Source: Solirubrobacterales bacterium
GTDB lineage: Bacteria > Actinomycetota > Thermoleophilia > Solirubrobacterales > Solirubrobacteraceae
Direction: 5' to 3'
Assembly: GCA_013695395.1 (NCBI GenBank)
Contig: JACDAP010000608.1
Coordinates: 1-10,320, forward strand
DNA: 10,320 nucleotides
The notes under the pieces were generated by a model. It did no database searches. It was not told where the DNA came from and saw only the letters and a program-made list of their open reading frames with translations. Position numbers and translations under genes: made by a program. How positions within the stretch are numbered: the stretch's first letter is position 1; each line of letters starts with the position of its first letter. Positions 6,008-9,997 of the stretch are shown here, one piece after another.

Positions 6008-8627
6008 CGTCGATCCCGCCGAGACCGCCGAGTGGCTCGAGGCGCTCGACGGCGTGCTCCGCGCCGACGGCCCCGAGCGGGCGCAGGAGCTGCTCGAGAC
6101 GCTCCTGGACCACGCCCGCCATCAGGGCGCGCCGGTCGTCTCGGGGCTCTCCACGCCGTACGTGAACACCCTCGACTCCGCGGCCGACCCGTCGGGCGAT
6201 GACTCCGCGGCGCTCGAGCAGCGGATCCGCGCCTACGTGCGCTGGAACGCGATCATGATCGTGCTGCGCGCCAACGCCGAGAGCTCCGAGCTCGGTGGCC
6301 ACATCGCCAGCTACCAGTCCGCCGCGACGCTCTACGAGGAGGGCTTCAACAACTTCTGGCATGGCCCCGAGGGCGAGCACGGGGGCGACCTGATCTACAT
6401 CCAGGGCCACTCGTCGCCGGGCATCTACGCGCGCGCCTTTCTCGAGGGCCGGCTCAGCGAGGAGCAGCTGCTGAAGTTCCGTAGCGAGGTCGGTGGCGGT
6501 GGCCTCTCCAGCTACCCGCACCCCTGGCTGATGCCGGACTTCTGGCAGTTCCCGACGGTCTCGATGGGCCTCGGGCCGCTCATGGCGATCTCCCACGCCC
6601 ACTTCATGAAGTACCTCACCGGCCGCGGGATCGTCGACACGACCGGCCGGAAGATCTGGGCGTTCATGGGCGACGGCGAGATGGACGAGCCGGAGTCGAT
6701 GGGCGACATCTCGATGGCCGGGCAGGAGAAGCTCGACAACTTGATCTTCGTGGTCAACTGCAACCTGCAGCGGCTCGACGGACCCGTCCGCGGCAACGGC
6801 AAGATCATCCAGGAGCTCGAGACGAACTTCCGCGGCGCGGGCTGGAACGTCATCAAGGTGATCTGGGGCTCGCGCTGGGACGAGCTGCTGGCCCGGGACC
6901 ACGACGGCCACCTCAGGCGCCGGATGGACGAGGCGCTCGACGGTGATTACCAGACCTACAAGTCGCGGAGCGGCGCCTTCGTGCGCGAGCACTTCTTCGG
7001 CACCTCGCCCGAGCTCGCGGCGATGGTCGAGGACTGGAGCGACGACGAGATCTGGCAGCTCAACCGCGGCGGCCACGATCCGCTCAAGGTGCGGGCGGCC
7101 TACCAGGCGGCCGTCGAGCACACCGGGCAGCCGACGATCATCCTCGCCAAGACGATCAAGGGCTACGGGATGGGGGAGTCCGGCGAGGGCCAGAACATCA
7201 CCCACCAGCAGAAGAAGATGAGTGAGGACGTGCTCAAGAGCTTCCGCGACCGGTTCGGCCTGCCCCTGACCGACGAGCAGGTCCATGAACGGGCCTTCGT
7301 GAAGCTGCCGGAGGGCTCGGAGGAGCACCGGTATCTGCTCGAGCGGCGTGAGGCGCTCGGCGGGTTCCTGCCGCAACGCACCGGTCGCGCGCAGTCGCTC
7401 GAGGCCCCGGAGCTCTCCGCGTTCAAGGCGGTCACCGACGGGGCCGGCGACCGCGAGATCTCCACGACGATGGCCTTCGTCCGGGTCCTCGCCGCGGTGC
7501 TCCGCGACAAGCAGATCGGCAAGCGGGTGGTGCCGATCGTGGCCGACGAGTCGCGCACCTTCGGCATGGAGGGCATGTTCCGCCAGCTCGGGATCTTCAG
7601 CCAGGTCGGGCAGCTCTACGACCCCGAGGACGCCGGCTCGCTCATGTACTACAAGGAGGCCGAGAGCGGCCAGATCCTCCAGGAGGGGATCAACGAGGCG
7701 GGCGCGATCAGCTCGTGGATCGCCGCGGCGACGAGCTACGCCAACCACGGCGAGCCGATGATCCCGTTCTACGTCTACTACTCGATGTTCGGCTTCCAGC
7801 GGGTGGGGGATCTGGCCTGGGCGGCGGGCGACTCCCGGGCGCGCGGCTTCCTCATCGGCGGGACGAGCGGGCGCACGACGCTCAACGGCGAGGGGCTCCA
7901 GCACGAGGACGGCCACTCCCACCTGATCTCCGCGACGATCCCGAACTGCGTCTCCTACGACCCGAGCTTCGGCTACGAGGTCGCGGTGATCGTCCAGGAC
8001 GGTCTGCGGAGGATGCTCACCGAGCAGGAGGACGTCTTCTTCTATCTGACGGTGCTCAACGAGAACCACGTGCAGCCGGCCCTGCCCGAGGGCGCCGAGG
8101 AGGGGATCCTGCGGGGGATGCACCGGGTGCGCTCCGGCGGCGACGCTGCGGATCTCCAGCTGCTCGGGTCCGGCGCGATCCTGCGCGAGGTGCTCCACGC
8201 CGCCGACCTGCTCACGGAGGACTGGGGGCTCGAGGCCGACGTGTGGAGCGTCACCTCGTTCACCGAGCTCGCGCGGGACGGGAACGCCTACCTGCGGGCG
8301 CAGCGGCTCGGAGTGGGCGAGCCGCAGGACGTGCCGTTCGTCGCCTCGTGCCTGGACCCTGAGCGCGGCCCGGTCGTCGCCGCGACCGACTACCAGCGGC
8401 TCTTCGCCGAGCAGATCCGTCCCTGGGTGCCCGGTCGCTACGAGGTGCTCGGCACCGACGGGTTCGGCCGCTCGGACTACCGCGCGGCGCTGCGCTCCTT
8501 CTTCGAGGTCGACCGCTTCCACGTGGTCGTCGCCGCCCTGCACGCGCTCGGCCGCACCGAGGACGTAGCGGCCGCCTTGGCCAAGTACGAGATCGACACG
8601 GAAGGAGCGCCGCCGTGGCGACGCTGA
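6000..8627 (+). CDS. aceE: Pyruvate dehydrogenase E1 component, homodimeric AceE type
   Basis: This 875-residue enzyme decarboxylates pyruvate with thiamine diphosphate and passes the acetyl group to the lipoyl arm of E2, the entry of glycolytic carbon into the citric acid cycle. Length is close to E. coli AceE (887). Landmarks in order are [20 protein letters not shown] (near 170), the thiamine diphosphate motif from GDGEMDEPE (224) to NCNLQRLDG (253), and [11 protein letters not shown]. These are followed by GGHDPLK with His359 (the equivalent of the active-site-loop His of E. coli), KTIKGYGMG, and then [26 protein letters not shown] and [19 protein letters not shown] in the pyrimidine-binding half. 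It overlaps the regulator by 8 nt and aceF by 13 nt, so translation is probably coupled. The ATG has a perfect Shine-Dalgarno sequence. All expected conserved blocks are intact. Confidence 0.98.
8601..8607 (+). promoter_or_regulatory. Shine-Dalgarno sequence of aceF
   Basis: GAAGGAG lies 7 nt before the GTG at 8615, inside the last codons of aceE, and decides the aceF start. Confidence 0.8.
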
Positions 8628-9997
8628 AGGACGTGCTGGTACCCGACATCGGGGACTTCTCGGAGGTGCCGGTGACCGAGCTGCTCGTGAGCCCGGGGGA
8701 CACGGTGGCCGAGGAGGATCCGCTCGTCGTCGTCGAGTCCGACAAGGCGACGATGGAGATCCCCGCTCCGTTCGCGGGGACAGTGAAAACGCTCGAGGTC
8801 GCCGTCGGCGACAAGGTGAGTGAGGGCGCGAAGATCGCGGTCATCGAGGTGGAGGGCGACGGCGAGGACACCGACCCGGCGGCCGCCGCCGGAGCGGACC
8901 GGACCCCGGACGAGGCACCCGAGGAGCGGCGGCCGCCGAGCTCGGAGGCCGCCGCGGCCTCCTCGGTCGCCTCCGCCGTCGTGGCCGAGGCCCAGTCGGC
9001 GCCGCCGCCGGACGGGCACTCGGTGAGCGCGGATGAGCGCCCGAACGGTGGACGCCAGTCCGCACTCAGCGATGAGGACGGGGTGAGCGCGGATGAGCGC
9101 CCGAACGGTGGACGTCAGTCCGCGCTCAGCGTCCATGCGAGCCCGGTGGTGCGGCGGCTCGCGCGCGAGAAGGGGATCGATCTCGCCGAGGTCACCGGCT
9201 CCGGTCGGAACGGACGGATCACCAAGGAGGACCTCGAGGGCGCCCCGACGGGCACCGAGGGCGGGACCACCGCGGGCTCCGGGGCCGGGGCGCCTGCCAA
9301 GCTCCCGTCCGCCGGAGAAGGAACGCGCGAGCCGCTCTCCCGGATCCAGCAGATCAGCGCCCGCAACCTCAGCGCGGCGTGGCAGACGATCCCGCACGTC
9401 ACCCACCACGACGACGCGGACATCACCGAGCTCGAGGCGTTCCGCAAGCAGCTCAACGGCGAGCAGCAGGACGTGAAGGTGACGATGGTCGCGCTGCTGC
9501 TGAAGGCGTGCGCGGCGGCCCTGGACGAGTTCCCCCGCTTCGCCTCGAGCCTCGACGGTGAGGAGCTCGTCGTCAAGGCCGAGCGCCACATCGCTTTCGC
9601 CGCCGACACACCGAAGGGGCTGATGGTCCCGGTGGTCCGCGACGTCGACCAGAAGGGTCTGCTCCAGCTGGCGGCCGAGCTCACCGAGCTCTCCGGCAAG
9701 GCGCGGGAGGGCAAGCTCGGGCCGAAGGAGCTGAGCGGCGCGGTCTTCACCATCTCCTCGCTCGGCGGGATCGGGGGCACCGGGTTCACCCCGATCGTCA
9801 ACCCGCCCCAGGTGGCGATCCTCGGGGTCGTGCGGTCGGCCATGCAACCGGTCTGGGAAGGGCAGGAGTTCCAGCCCCGGCTGGTGCTCCCGCTCTCGCT
9901 CTCCTACGACCACCGCGTGATCGACGGCGCCGCCGCCGCACGCTTCACCGCCCACCTGGCGGGCCTGCTGACCGACCTGCGGAGGGTGCTGCTGTGA
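8615..9997 (+). CDS. aceF: Pyruvate dehydrogenase E2, dihydrolipoamide acetyltransferase
   Basis: This 460-residue E2 carries acetyl groups from E1 to CoA and forms the core of the complex. One lipoyl domain (1-78) has the lipoylated Lys44 in [12 protein letters not shown] Glu/Ala/Pro-rich flexible linker (about 80-172) follows. It contains two copies of the peptide [16 protein letters not shown] (137-152 and 157-172) separated by DEDG. The peripheral subunit-binding domain starts at once ([17 protein letters not shown] to GRITKEDL, about 174-205), then a Gly/Ala linker and the catalytic domain (about 235-460). The catalytic domain ends with [16 protein letters not shown], where His433 and Asp437 are catalytic. 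E. coli AceF has three lipoyl domains; one is common elsewhere. The GTG start has a good Shine-Dalgarno sequence, and the stop overlaps the next gene as GTGA. The repeat insertion is the oddity. Confidence 0.95.
9022..9070 (+). repeat. Intragenic palindromic repeat, copy 1 (in aceF linker)
   Basis: This 49-bp unit shares 47 bases with copy 2, sixty bases further on. It is bounded by the inverted arms TGAGCGCGGA (9024-9033) and TCCGCACTCA (9059-9068), nine of ten pairs. It is read in frame as [16 protein letters not shown]. The flanks outside the unit are not similar beyond chance. Confidence 0.85.
9082..9130 (+). repeat. Intragenic palindromic repeat, copy 2 (in aceF linker)
   Basis: The arms TGAGCGCGGA (9084-9093) and TCCGCGCTCA (9119-9128) are perfect over 10 bp. 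Inside them TGAGCGCCC and GGACGTCA give a second, imperfect stem around a GAACGGT loop. The two differences from copy 1 (9055 C/9115 T and 9064 A/9124 G) are both silent, so the encoded peptides are identical. Copy 2 ends where the subunit-binding domain begins. Confidence 0.85.
9981..9986 (+). promoter_or_regulatory. Shine-Dalgarno sequence of the lipoyl-domain gene after aceF
   Basis: GGAGGG lies 7 nt before the GTG at 9994, inside the last codons of aceF. It selects this GTG as the start. Confidence 0.75.

Follow-up and report, generated by a model that had tools for sequence, protein, structure and literature searches.

The paired palindrome in the linker of aceF is most probably (a probability of about 0.7) one of the copies of a non-autonomous palindromic element that is dispersed through the genome of Solirubrobacterales bacterium (Actinomycetota). 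Each of its two units is a 49-bp dyad, in which family-specific arms (TGAG-H-GCGGAT in type A) flank a more conserved core. The twin lies in contig JACDAP010000608.1, of which all 10,320 nucleotides analyzed here are referred to as the window, and its features are collected in Table 1.

The original prediction, made from the window sequence alone, held that two 49-bp units with 47 identical bases and a 60-bp distance occupied the aceF linker. Positions and identity were borne out (9022-9070 versus 9082-9130, 47/49 identical, 60 bp from start to start). Re-reading of the sequence also returned the described outer arms (TGAGCGCGGA / TCCGCGCTCA), paired at 10/10 positions in copy 2 and at 9/10 in copy 1 with one C/A mismatch, and the aceF ORF does read one and the same 16-residue peptide from both units (residues 137-152 and 157-172), the differences being silent only. 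The canonical strand of the type-A unit 1 (9022..9070) is the minus strand, running from GCTGAG to CTCACC. Since Pfam placed a lipoyl domain at aa 6-77 and an E3-binding domain at aa 173-208, followed by the acyltransferase domain at aa 235-459, the twin takes up the last part of the linker, and the E3-binding match begins at the very next base. In folding tests, units 1 and 2 gave z-scores of -3.4 and -4.8 on the plus strand and -5.2 and -5.5 on the minus strand, the latter being best, and none of 200 shuffles equaled the native fold in any of the four unit/strand tests. A scan of the window against Rfam detected no curated RNA family at the twin; the sole match above the cut-off was a tRNA gene at 706-779 on the minus strand.

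Table 1. The twin palindrome and its host gene (window coordinates).
Feature	Position	Strand	Remarks
Unit 1 of twin, type A, 49 bp	9022..9070	-	R1 66.7 bits; 47/49 identical to unit 2
Spacer, 11 bp	9071..9081	.	length conserved among twins, letters not
Unit 2 of twin, type A, 49 bp	9082..9130	-	R1 66.1 bits; outer arms 10/10 paired
aceF, E2 of pyruvate dehydrogenase, host gene	8615..9997	+	ORF
E3-binding domain of aceF	9131..9238	+	PF02817, aa 173-208; starts at the base after unit 2

The expectation of further copies in the genome was strongly confirmed, both by BLAST and by the places found with two profile models. When positions 9000-9150 were compared with the host's own genome (3.25 Mb in 637 contigs, 87% complete), copies were recovered on 19 other contigs (E ≤ 6.4e-5, best 7e-28), and the aceF unit is therefore more than a chance or local event. 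A model built from 35 units (R1; alignment A1, with unit ends SSTGAG / CTCASS) detected at least 36 full type-A units with 55.8-73.8 bits, in addition to one cut by a contig end. Because 35 of these 36 full units are rows of the model's own alignment, the independent evidence for dispersal consists of the BLAST result and of later finds. Among the weak matches of R1, a second family was encountered. Units of this family B are laid out over 49 bp in the same way, but their arms are TGAGAATGGAT/ATCCATTCTCA and their core is CGCCCGCC-N-GGCGGGCG, as compared to arms TGAGHGCGGAT/ATCCGCNCTCA and core CGYCCACC-N-TTCGGGCG in family A. A joint model (R2) placed at least 37 type-A and at least 21 type-B copies and 1 partial copy in the genome, with 7 of the family B places absent from its alignment; the next match below these was a single one at chance level (E 0.65). 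Family B places include L068-L076 and L314-L317 and are likewise twinned at about 60 bp. The genome thus holds about 59 copies as a lower bound, with 57 places outside aceF. By its dispersal, its geometry and its placement, this is a genuine palindrome family, which is scattered through the genome, forms twins and enters proteins. The exact type-A pattern had 0 matches in collections of genome contigs and viral contigs, outside which the host's own genome possibly lies, and positions 9011-9140 had no match in plasmid and phage collections at the sensitivity used.

Pairing at a nearly fixed distance was common to both families. Family A comprised 14 twins, 1 triple, 5 singles and 1 truncated copy, and family B 8 twins and 5 singles, one of which (C37) lies 31 bases from a contig end. 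Over the 24 junctions of the 22 twins and the triple, the spacer measured 11 bp in 19, 10 bp in 2, 12 bp in 1 and 13 bp in 2. As judged from the asymmetric core, 13/16 family-A junctions were direct and 3/16 inverted, with equal spacing. Spacer letters look unrelated from locus to locus, and no resemblance to the flanks was detected over 21 junctions (permutation p 0.21 left, 0.089 right). A tandem duplication of flank plus unit was rejected, since the spacers are overall unlike the flanks; C568 alone fits, with 8/10 bases. Twin partners were more alike than units across loci (42.6 versus 40.1 of 49; p 0.0001 in 10,000 re-pairings of 14 pairs, C105, which has an insertion, and C476a being set aside).

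Most copies were situated behind genes. With gene calls from a simple codon-usage script rather than a published tool, the 33 loci (counted without the truncated copies at the C256 and C535 ends and the partial C313) were classified as 14 tandem, 12 convergent, 2 divergent, 3 coding and 2 undetermined, so that 26/33 follow a gene; the 12:2 ratio of convergent to divergent loci has a one-sided binomial probability of 0.0065 (calculated by hand). At 8/33 loci (C595, C252, C455, C568, C262, C507, C91 and C620), the predicted stop codon of the neighboring gene lies inside the element, in six of them as the TGA of the TGAG end, and the element therefore seems to be a source of new protein ends at these loci. 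At L009, two type-A copies 1.1 kb apart (1-41 and 1162-1270) have between them a minus-strand gene (37-936) whose domains are AbiEi-antitoxin-like and DUF559.

This placement is also what would be seen if the copies were RNA elements, i.e., 3'-end hairpins serving bidirectional termination or protection of mRNA ends that had spread because they are useful. The preponderance of the 12 convergent and 14 tandem loci over the 2 divergent ones, the stable folds on both strands and the similar placement of REPs (PMC3733652) all agree with such a role. However, no T-run was seen by eye beside the 21 listed twins (no four-T run within 14 bases after and no four-A run within 14 bases before), family A lacks covariation (see below), and the three loci inside genes would need read-through transcription. 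We regard this explanation as possible, at clearly less than even odds.

The arms were further analyzed for covariation. Within family A, the variable partner positions showed none, as 433/500 shuffles paired as well; dyad symmetry is therefore what the data demonstrate, and not a hairpin kept by selection. The earlier claim that each unit could fold into a hairpin stands for the capacity to fold, in which each unit beats 200/200 shuffles on both strands, and not for selection on the hairpin. Between the two families, concerted differences were seen at two pairs (score reached by 0/500 shuffles), and these can be one event. The covariation data fit either a dyad bound by a dimer or a hairpin that needs only the fixed pairs.

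A dimer-bound dyad raises the alternative that the copies are double-stranded DNA sites for a dimeric nucleoid-associated or regulatory protein, where the 60-bp distance lets two dimers meet, binding is the reason for which copies persist, and the coding copies are incidental. The independent variation of the two arms at variable positions within family A is in line with this, as are the spacers, kept in length and not in letters in direct and inverted pairs alike, and the arms, which are self-complementary across species despite changes of letters. Yet 26/33 loci follow genes, as against only 2 located between divergent promoters, single units occur at 10/33 loci (with C37 being 31 bases from its contig end), and a binding site alone does not explain the dispersal of a 49-bp homologous sequence. 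We therefore consider binding sites an unlikely explanation for the family.

Three loci of the genome are coding, namely, the aceF linker, an intein in a UvrD-type helicase and a linker in an M17 aminopeptidase, and in all of them the element is in frame. The original proposal that it is tolerated where protein structure is loose agrees with the latter two sites. The intein (Pfam Intein_splicing, 44 bits) holds a type-A unit at L013:1001-1049 and is missing from the aligned homologue in the same-genus genome G120; this copy represents one selfish element nested in another. The M17 copy (L019) sits in the linker that joins the enzyme's two domains. Among the 29 best aligned M17 homologues, a similar peptide was found in 3 (P0123, P0125 and P0126), and none was recognizable by eye in the other 26, including the close P0124. 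Counting twin units only, the aceF reading frame was stop-free in 29/30 distinct type-A units, and a recurring peptide thus arises without any need of coding selection; the other five frames were stop-free in 24, 20, 16, 8 and 4 of the 30. The frame used in UvrD is the dyad counterpart of the aceF frame (open in 24/30), while the frame used in M17 is usually shut by the TGA of TGAG and is open in this copy because that unit end reads CGAG.

Related elements were detected in other genomes. R1 at E 0.001 gave matches in at least 6/146 genomes of the family, at 48 bits or less in those other than the host's own, and R2 in at least 15/146, or at E 1e-6 in at least 10/232 genomes of the order. In G115, G118 and G120, as well as in G008 (another genus) and G164 (another family), the layout was recognized by eye with other self-complementary arms, and the G164 core is almost identical to that of the host; the weak R2 matches L213, L214, L224, L226 and L065, also judged by eye, resemble coding sequence rather than elements. 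In L319 (about 1440-1550; G164:C256), nearly the same core stands between different arms (GAGTGAATCC); shortly before this unit lies a second palindrome, whose arms (CAGTGCAATCC...GGATTGCACTG) differ again. The combination GAGACCCG...CGGGTCTC was located 7 times in G115 and twice in G117 and was missing from the 6 remaining genomes of the genus; the reversed control had 0 matches. A palindrome scan of G115 yielded 403 overlapping hits versus 164 in one shuffled control. When nine G115 arm motifs were counted against their reversed forms, GAATGAAGGTTC (16 versus 2) and CGAACGTCGATC (91 versus 20) were well above background, TCGAGCGTCCATC (14 versus 5) was less clear, and the remaining six were not clearly above it. 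Within 400 kb of G115, L081-L100 are further dispersed palindromes of 45-49 bp with other arms (e.g., GGTGAATGAAGGTTCA at 8 places), and two palindromes with different arms are 60 bp apart at 290206/290266. Same-arm 60-bp twins were found neither in 400 kb of G115, which have one twin at 68 bp, nor in 1.28 Mb of G120, where a palindrome scan of the same kind revealed no abundant family. Nine pieces of 19-22 kb from relatives, either named or MAGs, contained no R2 match at E ≤ 1.

Four further orthologous places were compared with G120. At C568, between carbamoyl-phosphate synthase-type and DHODB electron-transfer-type genes, the G120 sequence aligns on either side of the twin but lacks the twin itself. 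G120 itself has an in-frame unit inside its DHODB electron-transfer-type gene (L227:12455-12503; peptide SADEHPGGGRDPAFG), at a point where the host's DHODB-type protein has a different insert. The G120 gap at C77 is short but contains element-like letters, and at C252 and C507 the alignment is too poor to judge.

The search for traces of transposition gave negative results. No signal of target duplication was obtained (best z 2.4 of 686 length/offset combinations at 32 loci), and the copies may be too old to retain one. No parent transposon was found in a search for Y1_Tnp only: the domain had 0 matches in the host's own genome (87% complete) and was absent from 7/8 genomes of the genus, including the host, G115 and G120, but present in 22/146 of the family. 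These counts bear on whether the element is a REP or REPIN moved by a RAYT (Y1 tyrosine transposase). Small palindromes that are intergenic, paired and in part intragenic, together with the Y1_Tnp matches in 22/146 family genomes, recall such a system. In contrast, Y1_Tnp is missing from the genome itself and from 6/7 other genus genomes, including the palindrome-bearing G115 and G120, the units have no GTAG or CGTC end tag, and direct twins prevail. A RAYT-driven REP was rejected as the main account on the absence of Y1_Tnp from this genome and most of the genus, and we consider it very improbable.

The element was then compared with repeats described in other bacteria. REPs are 20-40 bp long, carry GTAG or CGTC tags and form mainly head-to-head or tail-to-tail dimers, head-to-tail ones being negligible in CGTC families; CGTC REPs have no dedicated transposase, and intragenic REPs occur (PMC3733652). 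With REPs, BIMEs and REPINs, our element shares dispersed short palindromes, species-specific families, pairing and an occasional intragenic position (PMC3733652), and like REPs its loci are mostly behind genes (14 tandem, 12 convergent and 2 divergent of 33). It differs in the unit length of 49 bp, in unit ends (SSTGAG / CTCASS) that bear no unpaired GTAG or CGTC tag, in the direct orientation of 13/16 family-A junctions and, compared to GTAG REPs with their RAYT (Y1), in the 0 Y1_Tnp of a genome 87% complete. Rickettsia palindromic elements (RPEs) are small palindromes of about 105-150 bp that lie between genes or have become part, in frame, of protein genes unrelated to one another (PMC10969869, PMC2229807). 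The likeness to RPEs proposed at the outset holds for in-frame insertion in unrelated genes (aceF, the UvrD intein and the M17 aminopeptidase, and the DHODB-type gene in G120) and does not extend to size and taxon: RPEs belong to Rickettsiales and are also reported in Wolbachia, whereas the present units, which measure 49 bp (109 bp per twin) and mostly occur in pairs 60 bp apart, belong to Solirubrobacterales (Actinomycetota). The coding share, at 3/33 loci, is also smaller. MITEs such as ERIC, NEMIS, RUP and YPAL are small non-autonomous repeats with inverted ends, some of them fused in frame (PMC2229807); they measure about 100-200 bp, many with target duplications, in contrast to 49 bp and none detected here. 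From intrinsic terminators, the element differs by the lack of a T-run after the hairpin at the 21 listed twins, as seen by eye. The element thus works like a REP or an RPE, yet departs from both in several of the features compared; it is filed as neither, since tag, size, dimer type and RAYT do not agree with REPs, nor size and taxon with RPEs. Among the best matches in openly licensed papers, we found no literature on such repeats in this group; the sections seen of PMC12306157 have three Actinomycetota in a table and no mention of Thermoleophilia.

The history of the aceF site was traced in relatives. Of the same-genus genomes aligned (G114, G115, G117, G119 and G120), only G120 has a unit, at the same place and in the same orientation. 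This single, decayed unit is the orthologue of unit 2 (9082..9130; 29/49 identical) and has 12 of 19 positions still paired (14 in unit 2); R2 scores it weakly, at 14.8 bits (E 0.43 over 1.28 Mb), and plain orthology would also account for the resemblance. In the homologues P0004-P0036, at least 12 had an element-like peptide, as judged by eye, just before VHASP (e.g., SADERPGGGHRSALE in P0022). P0005 has a 20-residue (60-bp) twin peptide (VSMDAPPPRGGGSTLS / VSMDATPPSGGGSMVS), P0004 and P0029 read VDSPSLSEGQTT, and P0021, P0023 and P0033-P0036 have no element-like peptide at this site. Given the decayed G120 unit and these peptides, the first aceF insertion appears to be older than these species, with the second unit and the arm type varying among them. 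With arm types outside G000 and G120 read from peptides and not from DNA, G000 is type A, the P0005 peptide (VSMD...) suggests type-B-like arms, P0004 and P0029 a third arm type, and the others single, decayed-looking units. It is conceivable, if doubtful, that the aceF site remains occupied and that its arms are replaced in situ around a core that stays.

As to the original question of whether relatives lack the segment, four same-genus genomes and more distant homologues do, and G120 and the close homologues with element-like peptides do not. A clean empty site inside aceF was not present among the relatives aligned, because those without a unit are too diverged. Of the "small mobile or dispersed" element first proposed, dispersal is borne out by the roughly 59 copies; mobility is inferred, with neither a target duplication nor a clean-ended empty/filled pair at aceF. 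An ordinary local duplication of the aceF linker segment, to which the great variability of E2 linkers among homologues and the single unit in G120 might point (the second unit of the twin could be a local copy), was ruled out as the main account by the 57 other, mostly noncoding, places and agrees poorly with spacers that do not derive from the flanks (p 0.21 and 0.089); it is hardly credible, being refuted for the unit as such, yet it may apply to the doubling at aceF.

For the dispersed element, then, we infer mobility, an enzyme, a role and an in-place change of arms. Copies would spread in trans by a putative enzyme recognizing the dyad and core, and those surviving would be the ones that landed near gene ends or in frame in linkers; a second unit would arise at the set 60-bp center distance, and arms would turn over between species.

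In the literature, palindromes read as protein were a trait of Rickettsia and Wolbachia, apart from some REPs located within genes in other organisms. Found in a GC-rich soil lineage, in a genome without a RAYT, the present dispersed element enters proteins and is twinned at almost exactly 60 bp; it is an independent case for studying the spread of such repeats, their preference for sites behind genes and the way in which selfish DNA is taken up by linkers and inteins. Since sister species have other arms around a similar core, the turnover of these families can be compared directly. If arms are indeed rewritten in place, a putative process would homogenize arms and twin spacing genome-wide, even inside a conserved coding gene, and this would be a palindrome system with switchable arms, measured 60-bp pairing and an enzyme unrelated to RAYTs.
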